Assembly (NCBI GenBank): GCA_001799675.1
Contig: MGTX01000013.1
Location: forward strand, 1 to 37,259
DNA length: 37,259 nucleotides
Direction of reading: 5' to 3'
Source: Elusimicrobia bacterium GWA2_66_18
GTDB lineage: Bacteria; Elusimicrobiota; Elusimicrobia; UBA1565; UBA9628
Positions within the stretch are counted from its first letter, which is position 1. Every line of letters starts with the position of its first letter. Positions 148 through 37,259 of this stretch are shown here, in pieces. Both the position numbers and the translations under genes were made by a program. Below the pieces are notes generated by a model. That model was given only the letters and a program-made list of their open reading frames with translations, searched no databases and was not told the DNA's origin.

Positions 148-153
148 TACGAT
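148..153 (+). promoter_or_regulatory. -10 element TACGAT, leaderless type
   Basis: TACGAT is preceded by TGC (extended -10 form) and followed by exactly six bases and then the GTG at 160. This would place the transcription start at or beside the start codon. No Shine-Dalgarno sequence precedes the GTG. A weak -35 candidate, TGGACG, lies at 124-129 with an 18-base spacer. Confidence 0.5.
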
Positions 154-159
154 GCCTGC

Positions 160-1890
160 GTGAAGCCCCGGGAATGGTCCGTCTACATCGTCCGCTGCGC
201 GGACGCCAGCCTCTACACCGGCATCGCCAAGGACGTCTCGGCCCGGCTGGGGGCGCACAACGCCGGGCGCGGCGCGGCCTACACGCGCGCGCGCCGCCCC
301 GTGGATCTCGTCTACCGGGAGAACGACCTCACCCGCTCCGCCGCGCTGACGCGCGAAGCGCGCATCAAGGCCCTCGAGCGCGCCGCTAAGCTCTCCTTGA
401 TCAAGAAGGCCGGGCGCGTCCTGGCCGCCGCCGCTCTCCTGCTGTGCGCGGGATCGGCTCGCGCCGCGCCGGCCTTCGACAAGGAGAACCCCGTCGTGTT
501 CTCCTCCGCCGCGCCCCAGGCCTTCGCCGAGGTCACGCCCGGCGTCCCGTATCCCGCGCGCATGTACTTCATCCGCCAAAGCACGGGGACCGAGGTCGGT
601 TCCGCGACTTCCGCCGACGGCGTGGCCTGGGTCGAGGAGGCGGGCGCGCGGCTGTCCACCTCCACTCCGCCCTCGGTCTCGGCGAGCTCCATCACGGCGG
701 CAAGCGTCCTGCCCCTGACCGGCGGCGGCTTCCGGATGCTCTACTCCATCGTCTCGACGACGGGCGCCTACCGCGTCCACAGCGCGACCTCCGCCGACGG
801 ATTCTCCTGGGCCAACGACACCGGCACGCGCCTGGAGTTCTCCGGCGGCGCCGTCTATCTCGCCTCGCCCAAGCTCGTGAAGCTGACGGATGGGAACTGG
901 CGGGCGTATTATGTGCGCGACCAGACCGGCGGCGCCAACCCCGCCAACGGGCAGATCTATACCTGCCTGTCCACCAACGAAGGTCTCGCCTGGGGAGCCT
1001 CCTCGGTCGTCGTGTCCACCCTCGCCTATGAGGTCGGCGCGGCCCTGCTGACGGACGGGCGCGTGCGGCTCTTCTTCACCCAGCCCCTCTCGGGAGCCTC
1101 GAGCGCCACCGTCGTCTCGAGCGCCCTCTCGACCGACGCCCTGGCCTCCTCTTTTGCTTTGGAGACCGGCTACCGGCTCTCCACCTCCGCGGTCTCGGGC
1201 ACGCTCTCCTTCCCGGCGCCCGTGCGCTCGACCGACTCCTTCCGTTGGCGCCTCTACTACGACTTCGCCGAACCCGGAACACTCTCCACGGCGGCCATCC
1301 ACACCGCCCTGACCGGCGCGCCGGCCCCGGCCTCCATGAACCCCGGCACGGTGCTGCGGACCAATGGAGCGACCTCCTTGACGATCTTGGGCGAGGTTTT
1401 CTCCGCGGTCGCCCCCGTCGCCAAGCTCTCCCAGGCAGGCCAGCCGGACCTCCTGACGACCGGTCCCCTGACCCGCACCAATGATCAGTCCCTCGACGCG
1501 GTCTTCAACCTCTTCGGCTTGAATACGGGGTTCTGGGACCTCACGCTCACCAACGCGGACGGCGCCGCGACGACCCTGGTCAACGCTCTCTACGTGGACT
1601 ATCCCGGCGGCGCCCTCACCCTCACCAACAACCTCCTGCGTCCGAGCAACGGCGTCCCCACGAGCATCGACGTGACCACCTTCAACGCCGGCCGCGTCCT
1701 GGCCCGGGTGTATTCCCTCGACGGCCGGCTGGTGCGCACGCTCTACGATGGAGACCGGGCCGAAGGCTCCTTCTCCCTCTCCTGGGACGGCCGCGACGCG
1801 GTGGGCGGCGCGGTCGCCAGCGGCCTCTACATCCTGCGCCTGACGGCGCCGAAGCTGGACGCGAAGTCCAAGATCGTCGTGATCCGATGA
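160..1890 (+). CDS. GIY-YIG domain joined in frame to a secreted FlgD-Ig protein
   Basis: The 576-residue ORF has two unlike parts. Residues 5-85 match small GIY-YIG nuclease-like proteins (YhbQ/UPF0213 type), with SVYIVRCADASLYTG at the front and the REARIKAL segment that normally carries the catalytic Glu. These proteins usually stop at about this point. Here the frame continues into a classic signal peptide (IKKAGRVLAAAALLL, ending in SARA) at about residues 80-102. An extracellular region follows with repeated SATSADG-type blade motifs like sialidase/BNR propellers, then a C-terminal FlgD-type Ig fold (ARVYSLDGRLVRTLYDG, GLYILRL). An in-frame TTG at 397 sits exactly where a separate secreted protein would start, so this may be two overlapping genes. 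The 3' end overlaps the next ATG (ATGA), suggesting joint expression with the PorV/PorQ-like gene. The domain calls are firm; one protein versus two is open. Confidence 0.75.
   Translation: MKPREWSVYIVRCADASLYTGIAKDVSARLGAHNAGRGAAYTRARRPVDLVYRENDLTRSAALTREARIKALERAAKLSLIKKAGRVLAAAALLLCAGSARAAPAFDKENPVVFSSAAPQAFAEVTPGVPYPARMYFIRQSTGTEVGSATSADGVAWVEEAGARLSTSTPPSVSASSITAASVLPLTGGGFRMLYSIVSTTGAYRVHSATSADGFSWANDTGTRLEFSGGAVYLASPKLVKLTDGNWRAYYVRDQTGGANPANGQIYTCLSTNEGLAWGASSVVVSTLAYEVGAALLTDGRVRLFFTQPLSGASSATVVSSALSTDALASSFALETGYRLSTSAVSGTLSFPAPVRSTDSFRWRLYYDFAEPGTLSTAAIHTALTGAPAPASMNPGTVLRTNGATSLTILGEVFSAVAPVAKLSQAGQPDLLTTGPLTRTNDQSLDAVFNLFGLNTGFWDLTLTNADGAATTLVNALYVDYPGGALTLTNNLLRPSNGVPTSIDVTTFNAGRVLARVYSLDGRLVRTLYDGDRAEGSFSLSWDGRDAVGGAVASGLYILRLTAPKLDAKSKIVVIR
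397..1890 (+). CDS. possible separate secreted FlgD-Ig protein (internal TTG start)
   Basis: This is an alternative reading of the same frame. Starting at the TTG gives a 497-residue protein whose first 23 residues form a good signal peptide: basic IKK, a hydrophobic AAAALLLCAG core and an SARA cleavage region. That would leave the GIY-YIG nuclease as the upstream product without its own stop codon in this frame. A signal peptide buried 80 residues inside a protein would not normally be used for export, which favours an independent start. No convincing ribosome binding site lies before the TTG. Confidence 0.4.
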   Translation: MIKKAGRVLAAAALLLCAGSARAAPAFDKENPVVFSSAAPQAFAEVTPGVPYPARMYFIRQSTGTEVGSATSADGVAWVEEAGARLSTSTPPSVSASSITAASVLPLTGGGFRMLYSIVSTTGAYRVHSATSADGFSWANDTGTRLEFSGGAVYLASPKLVKLTDGNWRAYYVRDQTGGANPANGQIYTCLSTNEGLAWGASSVVVSTLAYEVGAALLTDGRVRLFFTQPLSGASSATVVSSALSTDALASSFALETGYRLSTSAVSGTLSFPAPVRSTDSFRWRLYYDFAEPGTLSTAAIHTALTGAPAPASMNPGTVLRTNGATSLTILGEVFSAVAPVAKLSQAGQPDLLTTGPLTRTNDQSLDAVFNLFGLNTGFWDLTLTNADGAATTLVNALYVDYPGGALTLTNNLLRPSNGVPTSIDVTTFNAGRVLARVYSLDGRLVRTLYDGDRAEGSFSLSWDGRDAVGGAVASGLYILRLTAPKLDAKSKIVVIR

Positions 1891-2816
1891 GGCGGGAACT
1901 CCTGGCCTGCGCCCTCACCCTGGCCTGCGCGGCGAGCGCCCGGGCCGCGGCCTCCACCGCCGGCATCACCCTGCGCCGGCCGGTCTCGGCGCGCGCGGCG
2001 GCTCTGGCCGAGACCTACGCCGCCGTCGCCGGAGGCGCGTCCTCTCTGGGCGCCAACCCCGCCGGGCTCGTCGGAGCGCGGTGCCCGGAGCTGGAGAGCG
2101 CCTTCACGAGCGGCATCCTCGACGACGCCTTCGGCTTCCTCGGCTACGCCCATCCCGTCTCGGCCGGCGTCCTGGCCGCGGCGGTGGCCTACTACGACGC
2201 GGGCAAGGTGGAACTGGTCTTCCCCGGGGGCGCGCAGGAGACGCGCGCGGCACAGCGCGACATCGTGGGGCAGGCGGGCTGGGCGAAGGACCTCGGCGCG
2301 GGGTTCTCGGCCGGCGTCCTGGGCAAATTCTACCGCTTCGAACTGGCCCAGGAGGCGCGCGCGTCGGGCTTCGCGGCCGACGGGGGCCTGCAGTGGGCCG
2401 TCCCTCTGCGCGGACTGCGCCTGGGGGCGTCCGTCTCGAACCTGGGCCCGGGCGTGAAGTACGAGTCCGAGTCCAACCCCCTGCCGCTGACCGCGCGCTT
2501 CGGCGCGGCCTGGACCCTCGCCTCTCGCCCGCCGGACCCGGCGCAGAACGACACGGGAACGCGCCTGACCCTGCTCGCCGACGGGGTCAAGGTCCGCGAC
2601 GAAAAGGCCTACGGATCCGTCGGCGGAGAGTTCGGCATCGAAGTCGGCTCGTCCATGGAGCTGGCCCTGCGCGCGGGTTGGGCCTTCAACCACGGCAGCG
2701 ACGGCGCCGCCTTCGGGCTGGGCGTGCGCGAGGGCCGCTTCACCCTGGACTACGCGCTGGCGGCCAAGCGAGAGCTCGGCAACGTCCACCACGTCTCCCT
2801 GGGCGTGCGCTTCTAG
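1887..2816 (+). CDS. PorV/PorQ-like outer-membrane beta-barrel protein
   Basis: This 309-residue protein begins with a signal peptide ending ARAAA. It continues with the pattern of the PorV/PorQ (UPF0164-like) family: an early SARAAALAETYAAVAGGASS stretch followed by LGANPAGL, then alternating strands rich in Gly and aromatics, ending HHVSLGVRF with a terminal Phe typical of barrels. The family belongs to the FadL-type outer-membrane proteins, and some members act in type IX secretion; a transport or anchoring role here is inference. The ATG overlaps the stop of the preceding FlgD-Ig gene (ATGA). This coupling suggests that the barrel helps export or hold that protein. Only six bases separate it from the penicillin-binding protein gene. 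Confidence 0.75.
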   Translation: MRRELLACALTLACAASARAAASTAGITLRRPVSARAAALAETYAAVAGGASSLGANPAGLVGARCPELESAFTSGILDDAFGFLGYAHPVSAGVLAAAVAYYDAGKVELVFPGGAQETRAAQRDIVGQAGWAKDLGAGFSAGVLGKFYRFELAQEARASGFAADGGLQWAVPLRGLRLGASVSNLGPGVKYESESNPLPLTARFGAAWTLASRPPDPAQNDTGTRLTLLADGVKVRDEKAYGSVGGEFGIEVGSSMELALRAGWAFNHGSDGAAFGLGVREGRFTLDYALAAKRELGNVHHVSLGVRF

Positions 2817-2822
2817 CCGTCC

Positions 2823-5105
2823 ATGACCCGCCGCCGTCGCTCCGCTCGCCGGGTCTCCTCTTGGCTGCGGGCCGCCGCCGCCGGGCTCCTGGCGGCCGTC
2901 GCGGCCGCGGCCTGGCTCGCGGTCCAGGCCGAGCGCAAGCTCGCCGCCCTGGCCCTGGGCGGCCTGGGCGAGAGCTTCTCCTCGCGCGTCTGGTCGGCCC
3001 CCTTCGAGCTGCGCGCGGGGCGGAGAGCCGAGGCGCGGCGCCTCATCGAGCGCCTCGACCGCCTCGGCTATCGCCGCACGACGATCGCCCCGGGCAAAGG
3101 CGAGTACCACTGGGGGCCTCCGGAACTGAGGGTGGGCCTGCGCGGCTTCAAGATCCCCGGCGCCGTCCAGAGGGAAGGTCTCTTCGTCCTGCGGCGCGAC
3201 GACCGGGGCGCGTGGACCCTGCGCGACGCATTGGACTCCCCGGTCGCGCAGGCGCTCCTGGAACCGGAACTGATCACCGAGCTCTCCGGCTCGAAGAAGG
3301 TCCGGCGCGACCCGCTGGCCTGGGAGCATATCCCCCGCCGCCTGCGCGACGCGGTCGTGGCCGCCGAGGACAAGCGCTTCTGGACGCACCACGGCCTCGA
3401 CCCGCGGGCCATCCTGCGCGCCGTCTGGGCGAACCTGCGCGGCCGCGATCTTCAGGGGGCCAGCACGATCACCCAGCAGCTGACCAAAAACCTCTTCCTC
3501 ACCCCGCGCCGCACGATGACGCGCAAGCTGGCCGAAGCCGCCCTCTCCCTCTATCTGGAGCTGAGGCTCGACAAGCGCCGCATCCTGACGCTCTACCTCA
3601 ACCACATCTACCTCGGCCAGGACGGCTCCGCCAGCGTCATGGGCATGCGCGCCGCCGCGCGGCATTACTTCTCCAAGGATACGCCCGACCTGACGCTGGC
3701 CGAATCCGCGGCCCTGGCGGGGATCATCCGCGGGCCCGGGCTCCTCAGCCCCTTCCAGGACGCGGCCGCCTGCCGCGTCCGCCGCGACTGGGTCCTGCGC
3801 CGGATGCGCGAGGACGGCCTCATCGGCGAGCGCGAACTGTTCGCGGCCTTGGAAGAGCCGCTGACCGCGGCGCGCGCCGCGGAGGAGGAGGACCGCCACG
3901 AGCACGCCTACTACGTGGCCGAGGTCGTCCGCCGGCTCCTGCCCCGCTACGGCGGCGACGCGCTCTACCGCAACGGCCTCTCCATCCACACGGCGATGGA
4001 CCCGGTCCTGCAGGCCCACGCCCAGCGTGCGGCGCGCGCCGGCCGTCATCAGACCGCGCTCGTCGCCCTCGACCCGCGCACCGGCGACGTCCTGGCGCTC
4101 GCGGGCGGGCGAGACTTCGCCGAAAGCCAGTTCAATCGCGCGACCCAGGCCCTGCGCCAGCCCGGCTCCGCCTTCAAACCCTTCGTCTACGCCGCGGCGC
4201 TCAAGATCGGACTGACGCCCGCGACCCTCCTGCGCGACCTGCCCAAGACCTACCCGGGCCAGGGCGGCGGCTGGTCTCCCGCGAACTACGACGGCGTCTA
4301 TCACGGCACGGCCACGATGCGCGAGGCCCTGGCCCACTCGCTCAACGCGGCGGCCCTGGACCTGGCCGCGCGCGTCGGCCTCCAGCGCGTGCGGGAACTG
4401 GCCCGCGCCTGCGGGATCGCCGGCCCCCTGCGCGACGACCTGGGCCTGGCCCTGGGCTCGAGCGAAGTGGGCCTGCTCGAACTGGTCGCCGCTTACGAGC
4501 CCTTCGCGGCCGAGGGCCGGCGCGCCGAGCCGCGCCTGGTGACGGCGGTGTTGGACTGCGAAGGAGCCGCGCTCGAGGCCTCGGCGCCGCAATCCAGCGC
4601 GGTCCTCGATCCGGCCGTGGCCTCGCTGACGACCTCGCTCCTGGAGAGCGTCGTCAAGGAAGGCACGGCGCGCTCGCTCAAGACCCTCGGCTTCACCCTG
4701 CCCGCCGCGGGCAAGACGGGCACGACCAACGACGGGCGCGACGCCTGGTTCGTCGGCTACACCACCGCGCTGCTGGCCGGCGTCTGGGTGGGAGACGACC
4801 GGAACCGCGCGCTGAAGCTCACCGGCGCCAAGGACGCCCTGCCCCTATGGGCCGCCTTCATGAAGGAAGCCTCCGCTGATCGCGAGGGCGGAGACTTCAT
4901 CCTCGCCGAGGGGGTGGCGGAAGTCGCGATCTGCCCGGAATCGGGGATGCCGGCGCGGGCGGGCTGCCCGAGGAAGCTCGTGGAGCTTTTCATCTCCGGG
5001 ACCGAGCCCCTAAGAGAGTGCGCCCTGCACCGCGGCGGCATCATGGGCTGGCTCGGCCGTCTGACGCGGCGCGCCGGGTCATTCTCCTCGTCGAGGAATC
5101 CTTGA
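2823..5105 (+). CDS. mrcB-like: bifunctional class A penicillin-binding protein, PBP1b type
   Basis: This 760-residue peptidoglycan synthase polymerises lipid II and cross-links stem peptides at the outer face of the inner membrane. It has an Arg-rich cytoplasmic start and one membrane segment (about residues 15-35). A region at about 60-160 resembles the UB2H domain of PBP1b (LIERLDRLGYRR, LEPELITELSG). The GT51 glycosyltransferase follows with EDKRFWTHHG (catalytic Glu182) and QGASTITQQLTKNLF (about 211). The transpeptidase has all three motifs: S449-A-F-K452, S506-L-N508 and K631-T-G. UB2H is the docking site for the lipoprotein activator LpoB in Escherichia coli; no LpoB-like gene is seen nearby. 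It is preceded by the PorV-like gene (six-base gap) and followed by the SWIB gene. The family call is firm; the mrcB-like label reflects domain order only. Confidence 0.9.
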   Translation: MTRRRRSARRVSSWLRAAAAGLLAAVAAAAWLAVQAERKLAALALGGLGESFSSRVWSAPFELRAGRRAEARRLIERLDRLGYRRTTIAPGKGEYHWGPPELRVGLRGFKIPGAVQREGLFVLRRDDRGAWTLRDALDSPVAQALLEPELITELSGSKKVRRDPLAWEHIPRRLRDAVVAAEDKRFWTHHGLDPRAILRAVWANLRGRDLQGASTITQQLTKNLFLTPRRTMTRKLAEAALSLYLELRLDKRRILTLYLNHIYLGQDGSASVMGMRAAARHYFSKDTPDLTLAESAALAGIIRGPGLLSPFQDAAACRVRRDWVLRRMREDGLIGERELFAALEEPLTAARAAEEEDRHEHAYYVAEVVRRLLPRYGGDALYRNGLSIHTAMDPVLQAHAQRAARAGRHQTALVALDPRTGDVLALAGGRDFAESQFNRATQALRQPGSAFKPFVYAAALKIGLTPATLLRDLPKTYPGQGGGWSPANYDGVYHGTATMREALAHSLNAAALDLAARVGLQRVRELARACGIAGPLRDDLGLALGSSEVGLLELVAAYEPFAAEGRRAEPRLVTAVLDCEGAALEASAPQSSAVLDPAVASLTTSLLESVVKEGTARSLKTLGFTLPAAGKTGTTNDGRDAWFVGYTTALLAGVWVGDDRNRALKLTGAKDALPLWAAFMKEASADREGGDFILAEGVAEVAICPESGMPARAGCPRKLVELFISGTEPLRECALHRGGIMGWLGRLTRRAGSFSSSRNP

Positions 5106-5175: not shown

Positions 5176-5184
5176 TCAAACCAA

Positions 5185-11128: not shown

Positions 11129-11134
11129 CATATT
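11129..11134 (+). promoter_or_regulatory. weak -10 CATATT at leaderless spacing
   Basis: CATATT ends six bases before the ATG at 11141. It is a relaxed match to the TANNNT pattern seen at other genes. AAGGG in the gap could instead serve as a ribosome site for the ATG at 11147. Confidence 0.3.
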
Positions 11135-13977: not shown

Positions 13978-14054
13978 TGGTGGCGCGTACGGGATTTGAA
14001 CCCGTGATCTCTGCCTTGAGAGGGCAGCGTCCTAGGCCGCTAGACGAACGCGCC
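13978..14054 (-). tRNA. tRNA-Glu (anticodon CTC)
   Basis: Read on the minus strand, acceptor arms GGCGCGT and ACGCGCC pair, followed by discriminator A and an encoded CCA. The D-arm region TCGTCTAGCGGCC, an anticodon arm CTGCC-CTCTCAA-GGCAG with anticodon CTC (plus-strand 14018-14020), and the T-arm CGGGTTCAAATCCCG are all in place. CTC reads GAG, the Glu codon favoured in GC-rich genes. It sits between the M16 pair and the S9 peptidase gene, at the edge of a less GC-rich block. Confidence 0.96.
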
Positions 14055-15944: not shown

Positions 15945-15950
15945 TATAAT
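15945..15950 (+). promoter_or_regulatory. consensus -10 TATAAT, leaderless type
   Basis: TATAAT is followed by exactly six bases (ATCCGG) and the GTG at 15957, placing the transcription start at the start codon. TTGAAC at 15920-15925 is a possible -35, though its 19-base spacing is long. There is no room for a ribosome site. Confidence 0.7.
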
Positions 15951-15956: not shown

Positions 15957-17051
15957 GTGCGCTCAGGAGTTTTGCCGCTTTTTCGCCATCTCACCTCCGT
16001 TCCCACCGCCCCCTTCCGCGAGAAGGCCGTCTCGCGCAAGGTCCTCAAGTGGATCGCCAAAAATCTCGGGAGCCGCGTCACGGTCCGAAAGTTCCGCGGC
16101 GGCTTGGTCGTCTCGTATCGCGGCGCGGGGAAGGGCCCCGCTCTGGCCTTGGCCGCGCATCTCGACCATCCCGCCTTTCGTTTGGAGAAGGTCACGCGCA
16201 AAGGCGCGGCAGCCTTCCTTCAAGGAGGATTGCCTCCTCATCTCCTGCCCGGCGCGGAGATCGAGGCCTTTCCGGCCGTTCCCAAGAACAACATTCCTCT
16301 CGCCCGCGGCGTCATCGGCCTCCCGCCCAAGCCCGGAGGCCTTTGGTCCATCTCCTGGACCGTCCCGCCCAAACGCGGCTCCAAGCCCGTCTTCGCCGTG
16401 CTGTCTTTGACGCCTTATGAAGTGAAGGACGGCTGGCTGTCCTCGCGCTCGATCGACGATCTGCTGGGCTGCGCGGTCGCGCTTGAGGCGATGAGACGGC
16501 TCGTCGCCGCAAAAGCGAAAACGAATCTCAACGTGCTTCTCAACCGAGCCGAGGAAGTCGGTTTCATAGGCGCCTTGGACATGATCCGTTCCGGCGTTCT
16601 TTCCGTCGCGGACTCCTATCTTTCCATTGAGTCTTCCCGCGAGATGACGGGCTCCAGGCCCGGCAAGGGTCCGACCATCCGCCTCGGCGATAAGGCCACG
16701 GCATTCGACCCCAACCTGCTCGCCCTGCTCGACTCGGCCGCCGAACGCCTGAAGAAGAAAGGCGCGCTCATCCAGCGCCTGCGCCTGACCGGCGGGACCT
16801 GCGAGGCCACGGCCTATCTCGCCTTCGGCTTCGAGTCCGCGGGGGTGGCCGTGCCCCTGGTCAACTACCACAACGGCTGGGGGGCGAAGGCGGTCGCGCC
16901 GGAGCGAGTCCGCGTCTCGGACGCGGAAGGCGCGGTGCTCATCCTCGTCGAAACGGCGCGGCAATTCCCGTCCAAGATCCTGCGCGGCGCCCTGCGCGCC
17001 AGGCTGACGGCCCGCCGCGCCCTTGCGTCGCGAGCCCTCGCAATTGGCTAG
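15957..17051 (+). CDS. M42-like zinc aminopeptidase
   Basis: This 364-residue cytoplasmic protein resembles the M42 (glutamyl aminopeptidase/cellulase M) family. The expected metal and catalytic positions can be followed: AAH68-L-D70-H, the bridging Asp167 in SSRSIDDLLG, the catalytic pair Glu199-Glu200 in NRAEEVGFIGA and Glu225 in LSIESS. A late His falls in VNYHNGWGAK, where typical members have an HS motif, so the last ligand is not certain. The family releases N-terminal residues from peptides, often as large shells. A GTG start is chosen because TATAAT stands six bases before it. It follows the S9 peptidase, and both would serve intracellular peptide turnover. Confidence 0.75.
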   Translation: MRSGVLPLFRHLTSVPTAPFREKAVSRKVLKWIAKNLGSRVTVRKFRGGLVVSYRGAGKGPALALAAHLDHPAFRLEKVTRKGAAAFLQGGLPPHLLPGAEIEAFPAVPKNNIPLARGVIGLPPKPGGLWSISWTVPPKRGSKPVFAVLSLTPYEVKDGWLSSRSIDDLLGCAVALEAMRRLVAAKAKTNLNVLLNRAEEVGFIGALDMIRSGVLSVADSYLSIESSREMTGSRPGKGPTIRLGDKATAFDPNLLALLDSAAERLKKKGALIQRLRLTGGTCEATAYLAFGFESAGVAVPLVNYHNGWGAKAVAPERVRVSDAEGAVLILVETARQFPSKILRGALRARLTARRALASRALAIG

Positions 17052-17054
17052 AAT
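17049..17054 (+). promoter_or_regulatory. -10 TAGAAT, leaderless type
   Basis: TAGAAT overlaps the stop codon of the M42-like gene and is followed by six bases (CGCCCT) and the ATG at 17061. No ribosome site is present. A TTGCGT at 17023-17028 is a weak -35 candidate. Confidence 0.65.
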
Positions 17055-17060: not shown

Positions 17061-17798
17061 ATGAGAAAATCCCTCGTCCTCCTCTGCGTCCTCCTTGCCG
17101 CCGCCCCCTTCGCCGCCGCCTCCTCGGCTTCCCCGTTTGCCGACTTCGAGACGCGCGTCCGCGGCGAACTGATCAAGCCCCTCGCCCTGGACCTGGGCGG
17201 CCTGCTCGGCTCCGCCTCGGCTCACACCGGACGGTCCCTCGGCTTGCCCGGCTTCTGGGCCGGCGCGATCGGCGCGGCTCAGTTCAGCCCGGACAAGAAC
17301 GACCTCATCCTGCGCGACTCGGGCGTGAAGGCCTTCGGCCTGCCCATGCTGGAAGTCGGCGTCGGCCTGCCCTTCAAGGTGGACGTCATCGCCCGCGGCA
17401 TGAAGATCTACGACGCGAGCATCTTCGGCGCCGGCCTGCGCTACGGCCTGTACCGCACGGACCTCATCGACACCTTCCTGCCCAACGTCTCGCTGGCGGC
17501 TTTCGGCGACCGGGTCAACCATAAGTCCTTCTCCGCCACCCACGGCGGCTTCGACGCGGCCGCGACCTGGAACCTTCCCATCGTCAAGCCCTTCTTCGTG
17601 GCCGGTTTCGACGTGACCGCGCTGAAGGTCGGCGCGGCCGCCGCGCCCGGCGTCGCGGGCATGTCCGCGACCGCCCGCGGCTCGCGTTTCTCCGTCGGCG
17701 CGGAGCTGACGCCCTTTCCCTTCGTCGCCCTGCGCGGAGCCTGCACCTTGCGCCACGGCATGTCCGGCTTCGACGCGGGACTCGGCGTCAAATTCTGA
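17061..17798 (+). CDS. outer-membrane beta-barrel-like protein, unknown function
   Basis: This 245-residue protein starts with a signal peptide (MRKSLVLLCVLLAAAPFAAA). The mature part is rich in alternating hydrophobic strands with Gly and aromatic turns (FGAGLRYGLYRTD, FFVAGFDVTALKVG) and ends FDAGLGVKF, the terminal-Phe signature used by the BAM complex. It is therefore probably a small outer-membrane barrel. No family name is recognised. It is followed after one base by the cobalamin adenosyltransferase gene, so the two are co-transcribed. A link with corrinoid uptake is tempting but the protein lacks TonB-receptor features. Confidence 0.7.
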   Translation: MRKSLVLLCVLLAAAPFAAASSASPFADFETRVRGELIKPLALDLGGLLGSASAHTGRSLGLPGFWAGAIGAAQFSPDKNDLILRDSGVKAFGLPMLEVGVGLPFKVDVIARGMKIYDASIFGAGLRYGLYRTDLIDTFLPNVSLAAFGDRVNHKSFSATHGGFDAAATWNLPIVKPFFVAGFDVTALKVGAAAAPGVAGMSATARGSRFSVGAELTPFPFVALRGACTLRHGMSGFDAGLGVKF

Positions 17799-19285: not shown

Positions 19286-19291
19286 ATTCTA
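19286..19291 (-). promoter_or_regulatory. -10 TAGAAT, leaderless type
   Basis: On the minus strand TAGAAT is followed by AGCGGT and the ATG at 19279. It forms one half of a compact 62-base divergent promoter region with the plus-strand TACAAT at 19330. No -35 is obvious. Confidence 0.65.
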
Positions 19292-19329: not shown

Positions 19330-19335
19330 TACAAT
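19330..19335 (+). promoter_or_regulatory. -10 TACAAT, leaderless type
   Basis: TACAAT, at the end of a T7 run, is followed by six bases (AAATTG) and the ATG at 19342. The spacing favours this ATG over a TTG immediately before it. Confidence 0.65.
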
Positions 19336-23259: not shown

Positions 23260-23265
23260 ATCATC
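23260..23265 (-). promoter_or_regulatory. relaxed -10 GATGAT at leaderless spacing
   Basis: On the minus strand GATGAT is followed by GAAGGC and the GTG at 23253. It matches four of six -10 bases at the same six-base spacing as stronger cases in the window. Confidence 0.4.
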
Positions 23266-23287
23266 CCATATCCGCGGCGCTACATGC

Positions 23288-23293
23288 TAGAAT
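23288..23293 (+). promoter_or_regulatory. -10 TAGAAT with TGC extension, short leader
   Basis: TGC-TAGAAT lies 21 bases before the ATG at 23315, predicting a leader of about 15 bases without a ribosome site. It shares a 61-base divergent region with the M16 gene promoter. Confidence 0.55.
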
Positions 23294-23314
23294 GGATCTC
23301 CGCAGCATGCAACC

Positions 23315-24508
23315 ATGACCTTCGAAGAGTTCCAGAAGAGGTCCCGCTTCGACCCGGACGAGATCCTGGCTTATGCGCGCGGCGGCCTCCTCGCCGACGC
23401 CCCCGCCGGCCTGCCCGGTCTGCCCGGCTACCTGCTCCTCCCCTTCCACGAGATCACGCACCTCGATTGGGACGAGGCCTCGGGCACCGGCGTCATCGAG
23501 GCGGTGCGCCGCAACCGCTTCGACGACTGGTTCTACGGCTGCCACTTCCTGAGCGACCCGGTGATGCCCGGCTGCTGGGGCGTGGACGCCGTCTGGCAGT
23601 GCCTGAAGTTCTTTGCCGCCTGGCGGGGGCTGGCCGGCTGCGACAAGGCGCTGGGCATGGAGAACGTCTCCTTCTTCGGGCAGATCCGCCCCCACGACCA
23701 GGCCATCGTCTACCGCGTCGAGGTCGTCTCGGTCGAGCGTTCGGGCGGCGACATCCTGCTGACCGGCAAGGGCTCCGTCTGCGTAGACGACGTGCCGGTC
23801 TACACCGTCGCCGGCGCGCAGATCGGCACCACCTTCTGGGAAGCCCCCGACGCGCGGCCGCGCGCGGCGGCCCCGGCGCCCGACGCCCCCCCGATGAGGC
23901 CGCTCACCTATGACGAATTCTCCCGCCGCGGCCATCTCACCCGCGCGGAACTCGTCGCGCTCTCGCGCGGGACGCTCGTCAGCGACCCGCCCGGAGAGAT
24001 CGCGCTCCTGCCCTCCGACCTCATGCTGGAGATCGGCCGCATCGACCGCATCTGCGCCGACCGCGTCACCGGCGAAGGCGAGGTCTCGGCCTCCCGGCCC
24101 AACGCCCCGACCGACTGGTTCTACGCCATGACCCCGGGCTTCAAGCCCGCAGCCCTCTCCATCGACGCCGTCTGGCAGTTGATGGGAGTCTTCCAGGCCT
24201 GGAGCCGCAACGCCGGCACCGGGCGGGCCCTGGGCTTCGAGCGCGTCGAGATCTTCGACGCGATCCGGCCAGAGGATCGCGACATCCGCTACGAGATCCG
24301 CATCCTGAAGACCGTCCGCTCGGAGGAGACTGGAGACGCCTTCGTGCGCGCCGACGCGATGGTCTTCGCGGACGGCCGTCCCATCCTGAGTTGCTCCAAC
24401 GCCAACGTGGGCTGCCACAAGAACATCCGCTACACGAACTACCCCGCGGCCAGCGAGATGGGATTCGGCGGCAAGCTGAAGACGCGCGCGGCCGGAGGGC
24501 GGCCATGA
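23315..24508 (+). CDS. tandem FabA-like double-hotdog dehydratase
   Basis: This 397-residue protein contains two FabA-like hotdog domains joined by an Ala/Pro linker (about residues 178-195). FabA enzymes dehydrate 3-hydroxyacyl-ACP in fatty acid synthesis; tandem FabA-like domains are best known from polyunsaturated fatty acid synthases. Domain 1 has WFYGCHFLSDPVMPG with His77 and GVDAVWQ with Asp91, spaced 14 apart as His70/Asp84 in Escherichia coli FabA. Domain 2 has WFYAMTPGFKPAA, where Thr273 replaces the His, but retains SIDAVWQ with Asp284. In FabA dimers the site pairs His of one subunit with Asp of the other, so His77 with Asp284 would give one working site per chain. The stop overlaps the next ATG (ATGA). 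Confidence 0.85.
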   Translation: MTFEEFQKRSRFDPDEILAYARGGLLADAPAGLPGLPGYLLLPFHEITHLDWDEASGTGVIEAVRRNRFDDWFYGCHFLSDPVMPGCWGVDAVWQCLKFFAAWRGLAGCDKALGMENVSFFGQIRPHDQAIVYRVEVVSVERSGGDILLTGKGSVCVDDVPVYTVAGAQIGTTFWEAPDARPRAAAPAPDAPPMRPLTYDEFSRRGHLTRAELVALSRGTLVSDPPGEIALLPSDLMLEIGRIDRICADRVTGEGEVSASRPNAPTDWFYAMTPGFKPAALSIDAVWQLMGVFQAWSRNAGTGRALGFERVEIFDAIRPEDRDIRYEIRILKTVRSEETGDAFVRADAMVFADGRPILSCSNANVGCHKNIRYTNYPAASEMGFGGKLKTRAAGGRP

Positions 24509-25441: not shown

Positions 25442-25447
25442 AGTGTA
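25442..25447 (-). promoter_or_regulatory. -10 TACACT, leaderless type
   Basis: On the minus strand TACACT is followed by GGCGGC and the GTG at 25435. It sits in the 31-base gap after the NrfD-type gene and would give the receiver gene a promoter of its own. Confidence 0.5.
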
Positions 25448-25466
25448 TCATCCGAACGGCCGAGCG

Positions 25467-26696
25467 TCAAGGTCTAGTCGACGACGAAGGCCTGAGCGCC
25501 CCGGTCAGGACCGGGATGGTCATTTTCAGGAAAATCGTGTAAAGCAGCAGGCCGAAGGACCATATCCCCAGGCAGATCAGCCACTCGTTCGTGGTCGGGA
25601 AGTACTCCACGATCTCGCCGAGAGGCGTCGGAATGAAGGCGGGGATCACCATGCCCATCCCCTTCTCGATCCAGATGCCCACGATGGCGAGGATGCAGGC
25701 CAGGTCCAGGTACTTTAGGCTCTTGGAAACGGGCAGGAGCAGGAGTATCAGGGCCGCGGTGTTGAACGCCATGGCCGTCCAGATCCACGGCACCAGGCCG
25801 TGATGGCCGTGGAGCCCGAAAAAGAGGTACCTCGACGAGGCCACATGCGCCGAGTCCGTGTAGAACTCCTTGAAGAGCTCGCAAAAAAGAAGGAACACGG
25901 TGATGATCATGGAGACCTGGACGATCCGCCTCAACATCATCAGGGCCTTGTCCGAGACATGATAGGCGGTCACGCGCCGGACGATGCGCAGCGTGAGAAT
26001 CAGGAAACCGGGGCCCGCCGTGAAGGCCGAGGCGAGGAAGCGCGGGGCCACGATGGCCGCGTTCCAGAAGGGCCTCCCCCCCAGTCCCACGTAAAGGAAA
26101 GCGGTCACGGTGTGGATGCTGATCGCCCAAAAGATGGAGAGGAAGACGAATGGCTTGTACAGGTAGGGCGAAGGTTTTCTCCCCAGGTAGACCATGTACA
26201 CGAGGTAGCCGCAAATGTGGGCGTTGATGGCCAGGTAGCCGTTGAGCACGATCACGTCCCAACTGAGCATGGAGATGGGCCAGTTGAACTTCCCGACGAA
26301 CGGGACCATGTGCCAGAAGCGGTCGGGGCGGCCGAGATCGACCGTGACGAAGAGCAGGCACATCACGATCACGGCCACCGTCAGAAGCTCGCCGAGGATC
26401 ACGACGTCGTTGAGGGTCTCGTCCTCGTAGACGTAGACGGGGATCACGAGCATCACGGCGGCCGCGGCCATGCCGACGAGGAAGGTGAAGTTCGCGATGT
26501 AGAGGCCCCAGGAGACCGCGTCGCTCATCCCGGTGACGGACAGGCCCGTGACGAGCTGCTTGCAGTAGGCGTTGAGCCCCAGCAGGGCGCCCGCGGTCAG
26601 GGCCGTCATCCACAGGAAATAACGCCAGTCCCCCTCGAACGTCAGGACGGCGCAACGGTAGACGAAGAAGACGTAATCCTTGAGTGTCTTGGTCAT
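25467..26696 (-). CDS. NrfD/DsrP-type polytopic membrane quinone subunit
   Basis: This 409-residue integral membrane protein has about ten hydrophobic segments of the NrfD/PsrC/DsrP family, which exchange electrons with the quinone pool and may move protons. Visible family traits include YFLWMTALTAGALLGLNAY near the start, VTVDLGRPDRFWHM in the middle, and WNAAIVAPRFLASAFTAGPG. A long hydrophobic C-terminal part includes ACILAIVGIWIEKGMGMVIP. Its ATG overlaps the stop of the ferredoxin gene (ATGA) and it is the last gene of the cytochrome-ferredoxin-NrfD operon. Length and segment number are closer to DsrP or QrcD types than to the shorter NrfD of Escherichia coli. The partner oxidoreductase is missing from the window. 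Confidence 0.88.
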   Translation of the reverse strand: MTKTLKDYVFFVYRCAVLTFEGDWRYFLWMTALTAGALLGLNAYCKQLVTGLSVTGMSDAVSWGLYIANFTFLVGMAAAAVMLVIPVYVYEDETLNDVVILGELLTVAVIVMCLLFVTVDLGRPDRFWHMVPFVGKFNWPISMLSWDVIVLNGYLAINAHICGYLVYMVYLGRKPSPYLYKPFVFLSIFWAISIHTVTAFLYVGLGGRPFWNAAIVAPRFLASAFTAGPGFLILTLRIVRRVTAYHVSDKALMMLRRIVQVSMIITVFLLFCELFKEFYTDSAHVASSRYLFFGLHGHHGLVPWIWTAMAFNTAALILLLLPVSKSLKYLDLACILAIVGIWIEKGMGMVIPAFIPTPLGEIVEYFPTTNEWLICLGIWSFGLLLYTIFLKMTIPVLTGALRPSSSTRP

Positions 26697-28415: not shown

Positions 28416-28421
28416 TAGAAT
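28416..28421 (+). promoter_or_regulatory. -10 TAGAAT, leaderless type
   Basis: TAGAAT is followed by GACCTC and the ATG at 28428. No ribosome site fits in the six-base gap. Confidence 0.65.
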
Positions 28422-29429: not shown

Positions 29430-29489
29430 ATGGGTGACGCGGCGCCGCCGGGACTGGACGCAGGCTTGACGCCCGGCGTGCCGAAGTGG

Positions 29490-29495
29490 TCAACT
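29490..29495 (+). promoter_or_regulatory. relaxed -10 TCAACT with -35 TTGACG, leaderless type
   Basis: TCAACT stands six bases before the ATG at 29502. TTGACG at 29466-29471 gives a near-consensus -35 with an 18-base spacer. The good -35 may compensate for the weak -10. Confidence 0.5.
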
Positions 29496-30160: not shown

Positions 30161-30166
30161 TACTCT
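30161..30166 (+). promoter_or_regulatory. -10 TACTCT, leaderless type
   Basis: TACTCT is followed by GGAGCC and the ATG at 30173. The GGAG within the gap is too close to the ATG for a normal ribosome site. Confidence 0.45.
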
Positions 30167-30172: not shown

Positions 30173-30916
30173 ATGATCAACCTCTTCCTGGCCTTCGCGA
30201 CGCTCGCCGTCCCCGCCTTCTCCCAGACCTCGGAGACTCTCGCCGCGCGAGCCGGACGATTCGAGCTCGCCCTCGACCCCGCCGTGCAGGCCTTCGCCTC
30301 CGAGGACGCGTTTGCCGGCGTCGGCGAGTGCGGCGTGCTCGATATCAAGACCCTGCGACCCTTCTCCCTCGACGAAGCCTCGGCCCTGATCGCGCCCTGC
30401 CTGGCCGCCGTCGCCCGCAAGCTCCCGGCCAAGCTCGAGATCCAGATCGGCCGCATCTCCGCTACGCCGCCCGGCGAGCCCGCCAAGACGGGCCTGATCC
30501 TCAAGACCGACCTGAGCGCGGGCGGCAAGGCCCACCGCGACCTGATGGCGGGCTTGAGCCGCCGCGAAAATCGCCTGCTCGGGCACGCCGTTCGCGTTCT
30601 CACCCGCGGAGAGGCCGCTCCGGCCTCGGTCAGCTCCGTCCAGGCCGCGCTCGCCCAATGCATCCTGCCCACCGTAGTGCGCGACCTCAAGACCGGCGAC
30701 GACTTCGTGAAGATCTACGGCCGCTGCCTGACCCGGAACGCGGATCTCAAGATCACCGAAATCCGCGCCGGACCGGGCCTGACGGTGAACCTCAAGACCA
30801 ATCACTCCAACAACGCCTCCGTGGACGCGCTCAACGGTTTTGTCACCGTCAACGCGGGCAAGGGGCCGGTCTCGGTCATGATCGTCGCCTACTCGGCGCA
30901 GATCGCGCTGCCGTAG
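30173..30916 (+). CDS. secreted protein of unknown function
   Basis: I do not recognise this 247-residue protein. It has a signal peptide (MINLFLAFATLAVPAFSQ). The mature part is mostly alpha-beta with four Cys (in GECGVLD, IAPCLAAVA, AQCILPTV and YGRCLTR), which could form two disulfides in the periplasm. The C-terminal half is strand-rich (LKITEIRAGPGLTVNLKTN, GFVTVNAGKG). It lies between LemA and another unknown gene, all on the plus strand and each with its own close -10 element, so a shared function cannot be argued from operon structure. Confidence 0.65.
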   Translation: MINLFLAFATLAVPAFSQTSETLAARAGRFELALDPAVQAFASEDAFAGVGECGVLDIKTLRPFSLDEASALIAPCLAAVARKLPAKLEIQIGRISATPPGEPAKTGLILKTDLSAGGKAHRDLMAGLSRRENRLLGHAVRVLTRGEAAPASVSSVQAALAQCILPTVVRDLKTGDDFVKIYGRCLTRNADLKITEIRAGPGLTVNLKTNHSNNASVDALNGFVTVNAGKGPVSVMIVAYSAQIALP

Positions 30917-30944: not shown

Positions 30945-30950
30945 TAGAAT
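30945..30950 (+). promoter_or_regulatory. -10 TAGAAT with TGC extension, near-leaderless
   Basis: TGC-TAGAAT lies eight bases before the ATG at 30959, so the leader would be about two bases long. It decides the start at 30959 rather than an in-frame ATG (ORF start) at 30935, which lies before the -10. Confidence 0.6.
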
Positions 30951-30958: not shown

Positions 30959-31630
30959 ATGCCCAAGGATCCCGTGGCAGCGCTCCTCGCCCGCACGGAG
31001 GTTCTGCGCGCGCCCAAACGCCGCCTGGCCACATTCGGGACCACGCGCATTGACTACCACCTCCTCTCTCCCATCGATGGGCTCTCCGACCGCACGCGCG
31101 TGCGTGAGGGCTCGGTGGTCTCCTCTCGCCCCGCGATCCTGACGCCCGACGCCTTCAAGGAGCGCTTCGAGGGCTTCGGCGACGGAGCCGCGGAGTTCGC
31201 GCGCTGGGTCTCCACCTCCTACCGCGACCTCCTGCGCGCGCTGGAGTACAACTTCCGCAACCAAGGAATGGCCGCGCGCGTGATCAGCTCGGACCCGCGC
31301 CTGGTCGCCGAGAAGCTGCTGGCCGATTTTGACGCGCGAAGCGTGGAGGACCGCGCGGTCATCCGCTGCCCCGACGGCGCCTGGACGCTGGCGCTGATGA
31401 AGTTCACGCTGGACGAGGCGGCGCGCTCCTTCCCGGGCCACGTGCAGGACCTGGAGCGGCGCGGGATGTTCTCCCCCGACCGAGGCGCGGCCCAACGCCA
31501 TCGCGTCGAAGTCGAGGCACTCCTCAACAAGGCTCGCAAGAATCATTCCGGCCTGGAGGATCTGGGCCGCAAGCTGCGCCAATACGGCCTCTTCGAGGAA
31601 TACGAGGACCGCTTCCTCTCTCTCTTCTAG
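30959..31630 (+). CDS. cytoplasmic protein of unknown function
   Basis: This 223-residue protein has no signal peptide or membrane segment and I recognise no family. It opens MPKDPVAALLARTEVLRAPK, has a conserved-looking motif YHLLSPIDGLSDRTRVREG at about 32-50, and a middle section with FRNQGMAARVISSDPRLVAE. A helical, charged C-terminus ends with LRQYGLFEEYEDRFLSLF. It may be a nucleic-acid or RNA-associated protein by its charge, but nothing diagnostic is visible. It is expressed from its own near-leaderless promoter, and a short hairpin (CGAGC-GAAC-GCTCG at 31632-31645) follows the stop without a T-tract. Confidence 0.65.
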   Translation: MPKDPVAALLARTEVLRAPKRRLATFGTTRIDYHLLSPIDGLSDRTRVREGSVVSSRPAILTPDAFKERFEGFGDGAAEFARWVSTSYRDLLRALEYNFRNQGMAARVISSDPRLVAEKLLADFDARSVEDRAVIRCPDGAWTLALMKFTLDEAARSFPGHVQDLERRGMFSPDRGAAQRHRVEVEALLNKARKNHSGLEDLGRKLRQYGLFEEYEDRFLSLF

Positions 31631-31715: not shown

Positions 31716-31728
31716 TTATGGTCCATAA
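31716..31728. promoter_or_regulatory. palindromic operator candidate TTATGG-T-CCATAA
   Basis: Perfect six-base arms around one T lie directly upstream of a TATGAT -10 candidate (31730-31735) for the subtilase gene. The surroundings are markedly AT-rich for this window. The location, inside the core-promoter spacer, suits a repressor site. Confidence 0.5.
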
Positions 31729-33029: not shown

Positions 33030-33049
33030 CCCGGCCGTCGCCGGGACGC

Positions 33050-33090: not shown

Positions 33091-33091
33091 C

Positions 33092-33097: not shown

Positions 33098-33107
33098 AGA
33101 CGTCGCC

Positions 33108-34587: not shown

Positions 34588-34642
34588 ATCCCGCCTGGGC
34601 CCTTAGGCCCCCCTCGTCGGGGGACTTACGCCCCTGTCTTCG

Positions 34643-34652
34643 CCCCCCCCCC
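34643..34652 (+). repeat. C10 homopolymer upstream of the diguanylate cyclase gene
   Basis: Ten consecutive C lie directly before the putative -10 (TTACAT at 34658-34663) and about 10-20 bases before the two start candidates of the PAS-GGDEF gene. Slippage here would change promoter spacing. It mirrors the tract at 31672-31681. Confidence 0.6.
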
Positions 34653-34661
34653 GACTGTTAC

Positions 34662-35672
34662 ATGAGTCATATGCCCCTCTTCACCCCTCGTCTGGGGGGA
34701 CCTCTCATCGCTCTCTCTCGAGACTTCATCCGCGTCAAGGAGTATTTCGAGGCCATCGTGGCCTCCTCCGGCGACCTGATCTGCACGACGGACATCCGCG
34801 GCCGCATCATCTATTTCTCGCCGGGCGCGGAGGTCATGCTGGGCATGCCCGCGGACCGGGCCATCGGCATGCCGGCCCACGACTTCTACGAGAGCGGCCG
34901 CGACGCCGCCCAGTCCATCATGAGCCTCCTGCGCGACAGCCCCGAGGGTCTGGTGCGCAACCACGAGATGCGCGTCAAAGCCGCCAAAGGACGGATCATC
35001 ACGGTGAGCATGTCGGCCTCCTTCCTGAAGGACGGCCGCGGCCGCGTCATCGGCACTCTCGGCGTGGCCAAGGACATCAGCGACCGGGTCGACCTCGAGC
35101 AGCGCCTGCGCGAGATGACGCGCACCGACGACCTCACCGGCCTCTACAACCAGCGCCACTTCCATGACCGCCTGCGCGAGGAGACGAGCCGCGCCCAGCG
35201 CCAGCGCCGCAAGCTCTCCCTCATCGTCTTCGACCTGGACGGCTTCAAGCAGGTCAACGACCGCCTGGGGCATCTGGAAGGCGACCGCATCCTGTGCGAT
35301 TTCGCCAAGACCTTGACCGCCAGCGTCCGCCGCGAGGTGGACGCCGCCTTCCGCTACGGCGGCGACGAGTTCGTAATCCTCCTTCCCGAGACCGGCGCGC
35401 CGGGCGCCGCCCGCGTGGCGCGGCGCGTCACGCGCAGCGCCAAGGCCGCCTTCGGCAAGGACGGCGTCTCGACGAGCTGGGGCGCGGCCGAGCTGGAGAA
35501 GAACGGCGACATGGCCTCCCTCGTGCGCCGGGCCGACGTCGCGATGTACAAGATGAAGGCCGGCCGCGACGGCGTGCGCATGCGCGGCACGGCGCTCGCC
35601 CGCGCCTTCAATCCCTCCTCGCAAGCATGTCCCCGACCCCCGGACCGCCGCCGGCCCCCGCCCCCGGGATGA
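34662..35672 (+). CDS. PAS-GGDEF diguanylate cyclase
   Basis: This 336-residue soluble enzyme makes cyclic di-GMP. A PAS domain at about residues 25-150 (AIVASSGDLICTTDIRGRII, GTLGVAKDISDR) leads through a coiled linker (VDLEQRLREMTRTDDLTGLY) to a GGDEF domain with the intact active site FRYGGDEFVILLPE. The inhibitory I-site RxxD (REVD) stands five residues before it, so product inhibition is expected. Two starts are possible: ATG 34662 or ATG 34671, the latter seven bases after TTACAT. The stop overlaps the ATG of the transglutaminase-like gene (ATGA). It follows a receiver gene, suggesting a phospho-signal to cyclic-di-GMP route, though they are separate proteins. Confidence 0.93.
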   Translation: MSHMPLFTPRLGGPLIALSRDFIRVKEYFEAIVASSGDLICTTDIRGRIIYFSPGAEVMLGMPADRAIGMPAHDFYESGRDAAQSIMSLLRDSPEGLVRNHEMRVKAAKGRIITVSMSASFLKDGRGRVIGTLGVAKDISDRVDLEQRLREMTRTDDLTGLYNQRHFHDRLREETSRAQRQRRKLSLIVFDLDGFKQVNDRLGHLEGDRILCDFAKTLTASVRREVDAAFRYGGDEFVILLPETGAPGAARVARRVTRSAKAAFGKDGVSTSWGAAELEKNGDMASLVRRADVAMYKMKAGRDGVRMRGTALARAFNPSSQACPRPPDRRRPPPPG

Positions 35673-36514
35673 TGAAGACTCTCCGGCTGATTTCGCTGCT
35701 GGCGCTCGGCGCCGTTTCAGCGCGCGCCGCGGCCCCGATCCGGTTGGTCGTCTCGGAGCTCTCGTCGATTTCCGCGGCCCGCCCTCTGGTCATGCCGGCC
35801 GCGGCGACCGGCTTCTCTCCGGCGCCGGTCTTGCCCGCCGCCTCGCTTGCTCCCACGCCGACGCAGGCCTTGCCGCTTGAGATCTCTCCGGCCTTCGACG
35901 GCGCCGTCCCGGCGGCGGACGGCGACTCGGTCTATCCGCGCCTCGCGGTTTCCGAGGACCGGACCTTCCGCCTGACGCTTCAACTCAACGCCGTCCGCAA
36001 TGCGGTGGCACGCGCGCTCGGGGCGCTGCGCGAGAGCGTGGCGCTCGGCGGCTGGAGCGGGCCGCGCACGACGCTCGACGAGTCGTGCTGCGGCGACGCC
36101 GCGCCGAAGCTCGCCCTGCTCCTGCGCGCGCAGGGCGTGCCCGCGCGCCTCGTCGAGGCCGAGTTCCACTATTACGTCATTCTCGATCTTCCGGACGGGC
36201 AGATCATCGTGGACCCGACCGTGCGCCAGTTCTTCGGCAAGAAACTGGCTCCGAGGGCGGTTCCTCACGTGTTCGTCGGCTCCATCGCGGACCTGCATTC
36301 TTTTTTTCAGCGTCACGCCGGCTCGAAGACGACGCGCTACGATCCTCGGAGGATTTATTTCAGCGAGTCCATCGTCCGAGAGGACATGCTTCGCGCTTTC
36401 GAGGCGAAAGCGCGCGCCGGCGGCGCCGCGGAGCACGATCCGCTGCGCCGCTTCCTCAGGCTGCCTCCGGCGGCTGCGCGCCCTCCCGACTCGCCCGGTC
36501 TGATCATCCCCTAA
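35669..36514 (+). CDS. secreted transglutaminase-like (papain-fold) protein
   Basis: This 281-residue exported protein has a signal peptide (MMKTLRLISLLALGAVSARA) and an Ala/Pro-rich stalk to about residue 90. Its folded part carries what looks like a Cys-His-Asp triad of the transglutaminase-like superfamily: Cys141 in ESCCGDAAPKLALLLRAQG, His167 in EAEFHYYVILD and Asp182 in GQIIVDPTVRQFFG. The GVPAR segment before the His strand also fits the family. Activity may be proteolytic, amidase or cross-linking; sequence alone does not say. The start overlaps the stop of the GGDEF gene (ATGA), so the two are translated together. That suggests an exported enzyme under cyclic-di-GMP-related expression. 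Confidence 0.7.
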   Translation: MMKTLRLISLLALGAVSARAAAPIRLVVSELSSISAARPLVMPAAATGFSPAPVLPAASLAPTPTQALPLEISPAFDGAVPAADGDSVYPRLAVSEDRTFRLTLQLNAVRNAVARALGALRESVALGGWSGPRTTLDESCCGDAAPKLALLLRAQGVPARLVEAEFHYYVILDLPDGQIIVDPTVRQFFGKKLAPRAVPHVFVGSIADLHSFFQRHAGSKTTRYDPRRIYFSESIVREDMLRAFEAKARAGGAAEHDPLRRFLRLPPAAARPPDSPGLIIP

Positions 36515-36620
36515 AGAGCGGGTCGGGCAAAAGACATCGCCGACTTGGCCTCCCTCGGCGAGCTTCCTGAGATCGAATCGAAGCTTCTGGGTTCCCCTGG
36601 CGGGACCGGCGGGCCGGGGT

Positions 36621-36626
36621 TATACT
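36621..36626 (+). promoter_or_regulatory. -10 TATACT, leaderless type
   Basis: TATACT is followed by CCAACC and the GTG at 36633. It is the last of the nine strict TANNNT-plus-six cases and supports the GTG as a true start. Confidence 0.6.
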
Positions 36627-36632
36627 CCAACC

Positions 36633-37259
36633 GTGCCCCTCCTTCGTCGAGCGATCCCCCTCTTGTTCGCCGCGGCGTTGGCCGTCTCGGCGCACGCAGG
36701 CGTCGTGTCGCCCGCCGGAGCGGTGTTCACGCCGCCCGCGGGCGAGTGGGCAGGCCCGCTCGGCGTCGTCTTTTCCGACCCGGCCATCACTGCGTTCCTT
36801 CCTCCCGGACTGAGCATGCCCTCTTTGACGCCCGAGGACCTGCGCTCCGCCGCGCCGCTCGTGCAATCCCTCGCCCAAAGCCTGTCCATCACGCCCATGG
36901 CGCTGAAGACGATGGATCCCGTGCAGCGCAAGGCCGCGGTCGAGATGGCCGTCGAGGAGGCGAAGGAGTCCGTGCGAACCAAGGCCTACGAACTGGCCGA
37001 GACCGCGCGCGCTCTTTCCAGGCCGAATCGCGTGATGGACAAGGAAAGCCGCGCCGAACTGTACGCGGCGGTCTCGCACCTGATGGAGATGCGCGAATAC
37101 TACGACCCCTGGCTTGACGATGACGGAAAGGCCGCGATCGAGACGGGCTACGCGTCGGTCTCGGCCCGGGCTTGGGAGGTGCGGACCGCCCTTCTCAAGC
37201 CGGACGCGGACGCCGTCGTCGAACGACGCCCGGCCCGGGCGCCGGCGCCCGCAGCACCG
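36633..37259 (+). CDS. secreted protein of unknown function, truncated by window end
   Basis: An open frame of 209 codons runs from a GTG to the last base without a stop. It begins with a signal peptide (MPLLRRAIPLLFAAALAVSA, cut near HAG). The first part is Pro/Gly-rich (SPAGAVFTPPAGEWAGP), then a helical segment (AAVEMAVEEAKESVRTKAYE, AETARALSRP) and an Ala/Pro-rich stretch at the window edge. No family is recognised. Length, codon use and the signal peptide argue for a real gene, and the TATACT six bases before the GTG agrees. The C-terminal domain is outside the window. Confidence 0.75.
   Translation, partial: MPLLRRAIPLLFAAALAVSAHAGVVSPAGAVFTPPAGEWAGPLGVVFSDPAITAFLPPGLSMPSLTPEDLRSAAPLVQSLAQSLSITPMALKTMDPVQRKAAVEMAVEEAKESVRTKAYELAETARALSRPNRVMDKESRAELYAAVSHLMEMREYYDPWLDDDGKAAIETGYASVSARAWEVRTALLKPDADAVVERRPARAPAPAAP

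Follow-up and report, generated by a model that had tools for sequence, protein, structure and literature searches.

Leaderless promoters whose -10 element lies directly against the start codon were reportedly described in Deinococcus by de Groot in 2014. In Deinococcus-Thermus a TANNNT motif adjoins the open reading frame alongside a Shine-Dalgarno class, and passages of a motif scan across bacteria put its share at ~30% of open reading frames (PMC12340547). For Mycobacterium tuberculosis, PMC3898074 describes a TANNNT -10 element, transcripts that begin at the start codon, and 22% of expressed genes as leaderless. The layout itself is not new, since surveys predict leaderless genes in many bacteria: a study of 953 bacterial genomes reports them, as "TA-led" genes, in 207 (PMC3160421), and the predicted share of bacterial species with leaderless transcription is quoted as 21.6% (PMC9581028). 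Here we analyse a stretch of 37,259 nucleotides of Elusimicrobia bacterium GWA2_66_18 (contig MGTX01000013.1; hereafter the window), in which an initial annotation had noted TANNNT exactly six bases before the ATG or GTG of nine genes. Our measurements make it very probable that sigma-70-type promoters adjoin start codons in this genome, giving leaderless mRNAs beside a working Shine-Dalgarno system.

The window is part of a 2.79-Mb draft genome of 34 contigs. Among the best 80 of 142 loci matching its PBP1A gene (2823-5105), the product is 79% identical to that of Elusimicrobia bacterium RBG_16_66_12 and 55-74% identical to those of further Elusimicrobia or Elusimicrobiota records, while other named phyla reach at most 46%; judged by these identities, the lineage is Elusimicrobiota. 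We called gene starts with a simple codon-usage caller of our own that is blind to upstream signals. The test set for the window's own genome was 811,459 bases (the window and a further 774 kb, the latter being 28% of the genome), in which 674 genes were called, giving 668 usable rows. A gene was taken to have a free upstream region if it is divergent from its neighbour or starts at least 25 bases after it (n = 332); the other 336 were classed as operon-type. As a relative we used 400 kb of CP096137.1 (Elusimicrobiota JAD_PAG50586_1), with 199 free-upstream and 162 operon-type genes, and as controls, passed through the same pipeline, 150 of the 177 kb of D. radiodurans plasmid MP1 (80 genes) and 150 kb of E. 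coli (82 genes). Background is the mean count of TANNNT per position from -70 to -21.

In the own genome, TANNNT stands at -12 in 34 of 332 free-upstream genes against a background of 3.66 per position (maximum 11; Poisson P = 1.4e-21), and in CP096137.1 in 34 of 199 against 1.14 (P = 9.6e-38). The predicted genome-wide enrichment of the hexamer at -12 to -7 is thus present in both samples, and whole-genome word counts agree with it. Operon-type genes have the word at -12 in 7 of 336 cases (background 0.36) in the own genome, whose operon-type set may include a few promoters, and in 1 of 162 in the relative. The D. radiodurans plasmid gives 6 of 80 (background 0.50, P = 1.4e-5) and E. coli 1 of 82 (background 1.38, P = 0.75). 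Six bases is the commonest spacing, as had been proposed, but it is no rule: the own-genome counts at -12, -13, -14, -15 and -16 are 34, 25, 10, 11 and 8, so that spacings of 6, 7, 8 and 9 occur in 34, 25, 10 and 11 of 332 genes. In CP096137.1 the same four spacings are found 34, 8, 2 and 3 times (n = 199).

It could be argued that such words arise by chance, or as a by-product of base composition, codon phase and upstream TAG or TAA stops. Upstream DNA is indeed more A+T-rich than the initial annotation assumed (21% A and 21% T, not near 15% each), and the chance rate is therefore 0.9% per gene from composition, or 1.1% as measured (3.66/332), 3-4 times the 0.3% first given; the excess at -12 over this measured background is ~9-fold. 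In addition, the TAG of the TAGAAT before 17061 also terminates the preceding gene (15957-17051), and raw, caller-free counts in a 400-kb sample peak only modestly (44, 41 and 37 at spacings 6-8 against ~26), which made whole-genome counts and gene-based tests necessary. These tests already contradict a chance or compositional origin, which we regard as almost certainly wrong. Over the whole own genome, TANNNT-N6-ATG occurs 346 times without any gene calling, against 194 and 175 times at spacings of 16 and 18; independent T, A and T columns would give 8.8 genes at -12 rather than 34; shifted decoys (below) fall far short of the real positions; E. coli lacks the signal at -12; and orthologues conserve the layout.

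The sequences around the hexamers have the character of promoters. We compared hits, genes with TANNNT at -12, -13 or -14 (69 of 332 in the own genome, 44 of 199 in the relative), with non-hits, which lack it anywhere from -16 to -10 (244 and 152 genes). TGn stands immediately 5' of the hexamer in 28 of 69 hits, 14 of 244 non-hits and 25 of 147 TANNNT words further upstream in the own genome; the corresponding figures in the relative are 12 of 44, 2 of 152 and 3 of 53. TTGA at a 17-base spacer is found in 11 of 69 own-genome hits against 3 of 244 non-hits (P = 6e-6). Shine-Dalgarno 4-mers at about -20 to -5 show the reverse distribution: 7 of 69 hits against 86 of 244 non-hits in the own genome, and none of 44 against 34 of 152 in the relative, so that these motifs are strongly depleted in hits, although not wholly absent. 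By gene class, they occur in 137 of 336 operon-type and 87 of 332 free-upstream genes of the own genome.

The depletion of Shine-Dalgarno motifs, together with a position that would suit a ribosome site, could also be explained if the element were a translation signal and no promoter at all, namely an AT-rich, non-Shine-Dalgarno ribosome site of the sort reported for Bacteroides. We consider this very unlikely, because TGn, and TTGA at a distance of 17 bases, belong to promoters, and because the element occurs mainly where upstream regions are free, not inside operons. The LemA gene of the window (start 29502) bears on the same point. A search of 44 genomes located it in 24, and we read by eye the 21 strongest of 30 fetched loci, leaving out the 9 weaker ones: eight have strict TANNNT-N6-ATG, seven (the window included) a weak hexamer, three (L182-L184) GGAGG, and three are unclear. 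All seven weak hexamers have TTGAC upstream, while seven of the eight strict ones have none in view.

To estimate how many genes carry the arrangement, each genome was scanned with a weight matrix derived from the other, at candidate starts close to the best one and at the lowest threshold, with shifted positions as decoys. The scan recovers 113 of 332 free-upstream genes in the own genome against 34.1 decoys and 45 of 199 in the relative against 6.0; among operon-type genes the figures are 13 of 336 against 6.2 and 2 of 162 against 0.2, and in the controls 13 of 80 against 4.4 (D. radiodurans) and 16 of 82 against 17.5 (E. coli). The excess corresponds to 24% (own) and 20% (relative) of free-upstream genes, or ~13% and ~11% of all genes. 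As a lower-bound count, the predicted leaderless share is therefore roughly 20-24% of free-upstream genes and 11-13% of all genes. No 16S gene was found in the window's genome, and the anti-Shine-Dalgarno sequence was for that reason read in CP096137.1, whose 16S 3' end is GGATCACCTCCTTTC; its CCTCC is intact, and leaderless and Shine-Dalgarno modes can therefore coexist.

A different possibility is that the hexamers are ordinary -10 elements of leadered promoters, that the true starts lie downstream with Shine-Dalgarno sites of their own, and that the ATG or GTG at +1 is there by chance. Our neutral caller does place starts 3' of three of the nine claimed ones, 15957 by 5 codons, 19342 by 20 (19402) and 28428 by 5 (TTG 28443), and two LemA loci of other genera (L182 and L183) carry TATAAT or TATCAT ~30 bases upstream together with GGAGG. 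Nevertheless we think this explanation improbable. The peak is sharp even though starts were called without upstream information, Shine-Dalgarno motifs are depleted in hits, and orthologues of the M42 peptidase gene (15957) keep the spacing of six while the start itself moves. Of the family's 44 genomes, 29 yielded the M42 gene, and its loci within the genus, the window's own included, have TANNNT exactly six bases before ATG or GTG in 17 of 19 cases; 10 of those 17 loci have a start lying two codons farther 5', with the hexamer displaced accordingly.

Other orthologues give a similar picture with smaller numbers (positions were taken by ungapped extension from the alignment start). Of 12 named loci, 10 hold an orthologue of the gene starting at 160, and TANNNT is present in each of the ten, at six (5 loci), seven (4) or eight (1) bases. 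For the gene at 30173, 11 orthologues were found among 21 loci and nine align from residue 1; in all nine the second and sixth bases of the hexamer at this place are A and T, and in three it is strict TANNNT. The gene at 17061 is present in six of 29 loci (counting the window's own), with strict TANNNT near the start in two (own at six bases, L158 at eight), and that at 30959 in 2 of 21, again counting the own copy, the other (L181) having TACAAT six bases before GTG. These comparisons support the starts at 160, 15957 and 30173, and the LemA loci look like a case of switching between leaderless and Shine-Dalgarno modes.

We also asked how widely the word is spread, by counting TANNNT-N6-ATG in 247 genomes of the phylum and taking as control the larger of the counts at spacings 16 and 18, because the two diverge in other families (G055, for example, has 429 at spacing 6, 372 at 16 and 278 at 18); a reversed-pattern control was set aside because it is a different word. 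The ratio is 1.57-3.34 in 10 of 10 sampled genomes of the own genus, 0.94-2.44 in 14 other genomes of the own family, and 1.80-2.92 in the order's second family (four genomes). In the 219 genomes that belong to neither family (f1 or f2) the highest ratio found was 1.20 (G204, P = 0.005); these ratios were derived by reading the tables rather than by script, 7 of the 219 being computed individually. Clear enrichment among the 247 sampled genomes is thus limited to the window's order, some of whose genera are without it, and its absence from AT-rich genomes is only weakly tested owing to their high backgrounds. A set of 22 named genomes, with spacing 18 alone as control, overlaps this sample by six genomes with identical counts (probable duplicates G213/G248, G217/G250, G124/G251, G236/G252, G164/G255 and G156/G257). 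Counts at spacings 6/18 are 478/129 in CP096137.1, 232/48 in REEB337, 320/173 in RBG_16_66_12, 565/498 in NC_groundwater_1299 and 109/64 in Aeromicrobium; seven more named Elusimicrobia have ratios of 1.57 to 2.89 (computed by hand), and the remaining eight genomes 0.86 to 1.06, an Armatimonadetes record (170/166) among them.

Several observations weigh against the interpretation as leaderless promoters, or narrow it. The starts rest on our own simple caller. In E. coli, 5 of 82 genes have TANNNT at -13, where the background is 1.38, which shows how much a single position can fluctuate in a small sample. The relative has a weak -35 signal (TTGA with a 17-base spacer in 2 of 44 hits and none of 152 non-hits, P = 0.05), and C at -1, considered as a possible initiator mark and dropped, is hardly commoner in hits than in other genes (37 of 69 against 119 of 263 in the own genome, 23 of 44 against 72 of 155 in the relative). 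Two of three named actinobacterial genomes, intended as positive controls, show little signal (203/171 and 64/58), and a Nitrospinales genome has 624/535. Within the own family, genus g2 (4 of 4 genomes) and G189 show no excess, and the M42 layout is kept in only 2 of 10 loci of other genera (L163 and L167). The 20 other loci searched yielded no orthologue of 28428, two of the relaxed sites in the window stay unsupported, and orthologous loci share ancestry and hence are not independent.

The evidence taken together nonetheless favours leaderless promoters: spacing, extended -10 and -35 content, Shine-Dalgarno depletion, concentration at free upstream regions and conservation among orthologues all fit. 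At sigma-70-type promoters, transcription initiates ~7 bases downstream of the -10 element. With the hexamer at -12 to -7, we infer a 5' end on the ATG or GTG or at most ~3 bases before it. Translation of such an mRNA would do without a Shine-Dalgarno site; to judge from other bacteria, ribosomes presumably bind the 5'-terminal start codon. Two initiation modes would then operate side by side, the leaderless one in about one fifth to one quarter of free-upstream genes and the Shine-Dalgarno one in many others, above all inside operons. A broader proposal, to which we give slightly less than an even chance, is that one Elusimicrobiota order took up leaderless expression independently of Actinobacteria and Deinococcota, as a main mode for promoter-proximal genes, with promoters that differ from the mycobacterial type in having TGn and some -35 sequence; that the promoter sets the first residue, the start codon moving with the -10; and that single genes switch between leaderless and Shine-Dalgarno modes between genera.

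All nine exact sites in the window (TANNNT, six bases, ATG or GTG), the three relaxed hexamers and the TAGAAT at eight bases were found as annotated (Table 1). The neutral caller reproduces four of the nine at -12 (17061, 19279, 25435 and 30173), plus 30959 at -14; 160 and 36633 have no row in its table.

Table 1. Proposed promoter elements and associated start codons in the window
Element	Coordinates	Strand	Context
-10 TACGAT	148..153	+	6 bases before GTG 160
Relaxed hexamer CATATT	11129..11134	+	before ATG 11141 (M16-like peptidase)
-10 TATAAT	15945..15950	+	before GTG 15957 (M42 peptidase, PF05343)
-10 TAGAAT	17049..17054	+	before ATG 17061
-10 TAGAAT	19286..19291	-	before ATG 19279(-), divergent gene
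-10 TACAAT	19330..19335	+	before ATG 19342
Relaxed hexamer GATGAT	23260..23265	-	before GTG 23253(-) (M16 peptidase, PF00675)
-10 TACACT	25442..25447	-	before GTG 25435(-) (response regulator, PF00072)
-35 TTGACG	25465..25470	-	17-base spacer to TACACT
-10 TAGAAT	28416..28421	+	before ATG 28428
-35 TTGACG	29466..29471	+	18-base spacer to weak hexamer at 29490
Weak -10 TCAACT	29490..29495	+	before ATG 29502 (LemA, PF04011)
-10 TACTCT	30161..30166	+	before ATG 30173
-10 TAGAAT	30945..30950	+	8 bases before ATG 30959
-10 TATACT	36621..36626	+	before GTG 36633; signal-peptide-like start, judged by eye

The product starting at 160 has an N-terminus that we take to be GIY-YIG-like, a name matched by no family search. 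It belongs to a single frame (103-1890, +) that continues through a signal-peptide-like stretch into a long secreted-type protein with a weakly FlgD/T9SS-tail-like end, and is either an unusual fusion or a frame artefact; the next gene (1887-2816) is of the PorV family. Upstream of the 30173 orthologues, between TTGAC or TTGAT and the hexamer, seven loci (L173-L177, L179 and L181) share AAAGTCCTA-N9/10-GGGCCTTT or a close variant, possibly a regulator site; the window has a degenerate copy at ~30131 (+) and another at 31716 (-), and no Rfam match covers the conserved stretch. The sole Rfam match in the window at the gathering threshold is a tRNA gene (13981-14054, -). A listed open frame at 23261-24418 (-) has no Pfam match, and our caller took the opposite strand there (23315-24508, +). 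In CP096137.1, positions 1-400000 (L121-L140) hold 19 copies of AGGyCTGACACC; among the 12 listed, some form opposite pairs ~40-50 bases apart and some lie 5' of TANNNT-start layouts. This dispersed repeat, of which the 811 kb of the window's genome hold no copy, may be a source of -35-like sequence in CP096137.1.

For annotation, the arrangement means that start codons in these genomes may be misassigned by gene-finding programs optimised for Shine-Dalgarno sites. Because the clade includes closely related genera that have the signal and others that lack it, and single genes that apparently change mode, it would also allow direct tests of how leaderless expression evolves in a phylum other than the two classical ones. 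The mode of gene expression proposed here is already known; for this lineage, as the initial annotation had supposed, we found no description of leaderless genes in the open-licence library searched (titles, abstract starts and passages). The section of PMC3160421 that lists groups with leaderless genes does not name Elusimicrobia, the string "Elusimicro" is absent from the main text of PMC12340547, and Elusimicrobiota are named in a table of anti-Shine-Dalgarno types in PMC10783764. Like the TA-led genes of PMC3160421, those described here have a computed signal ~10 bases before the start, of the TAnnnT form seen in high-GC genomes. With Deinococcus-Thermus (PMC12340547) they share TANNNT beside the open reading frame and a coexisting Shine-Dalgarno class, and D. 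radiodurans MP1 has the word at the same position (-12); they differ in phylum and in share, at least ~11-13% of genes here against ~30% of open reading frames there. M. tuberculosis (PMC3898074) has the TANNNT -10 in common with these genomes, in which a transcript start at the start codon is predicted; they differ from it in the TG that precedes 28 of 69 and 12 of 44 hexamers and in the TTGA that lies 17 bases upstream of 11 of 69.

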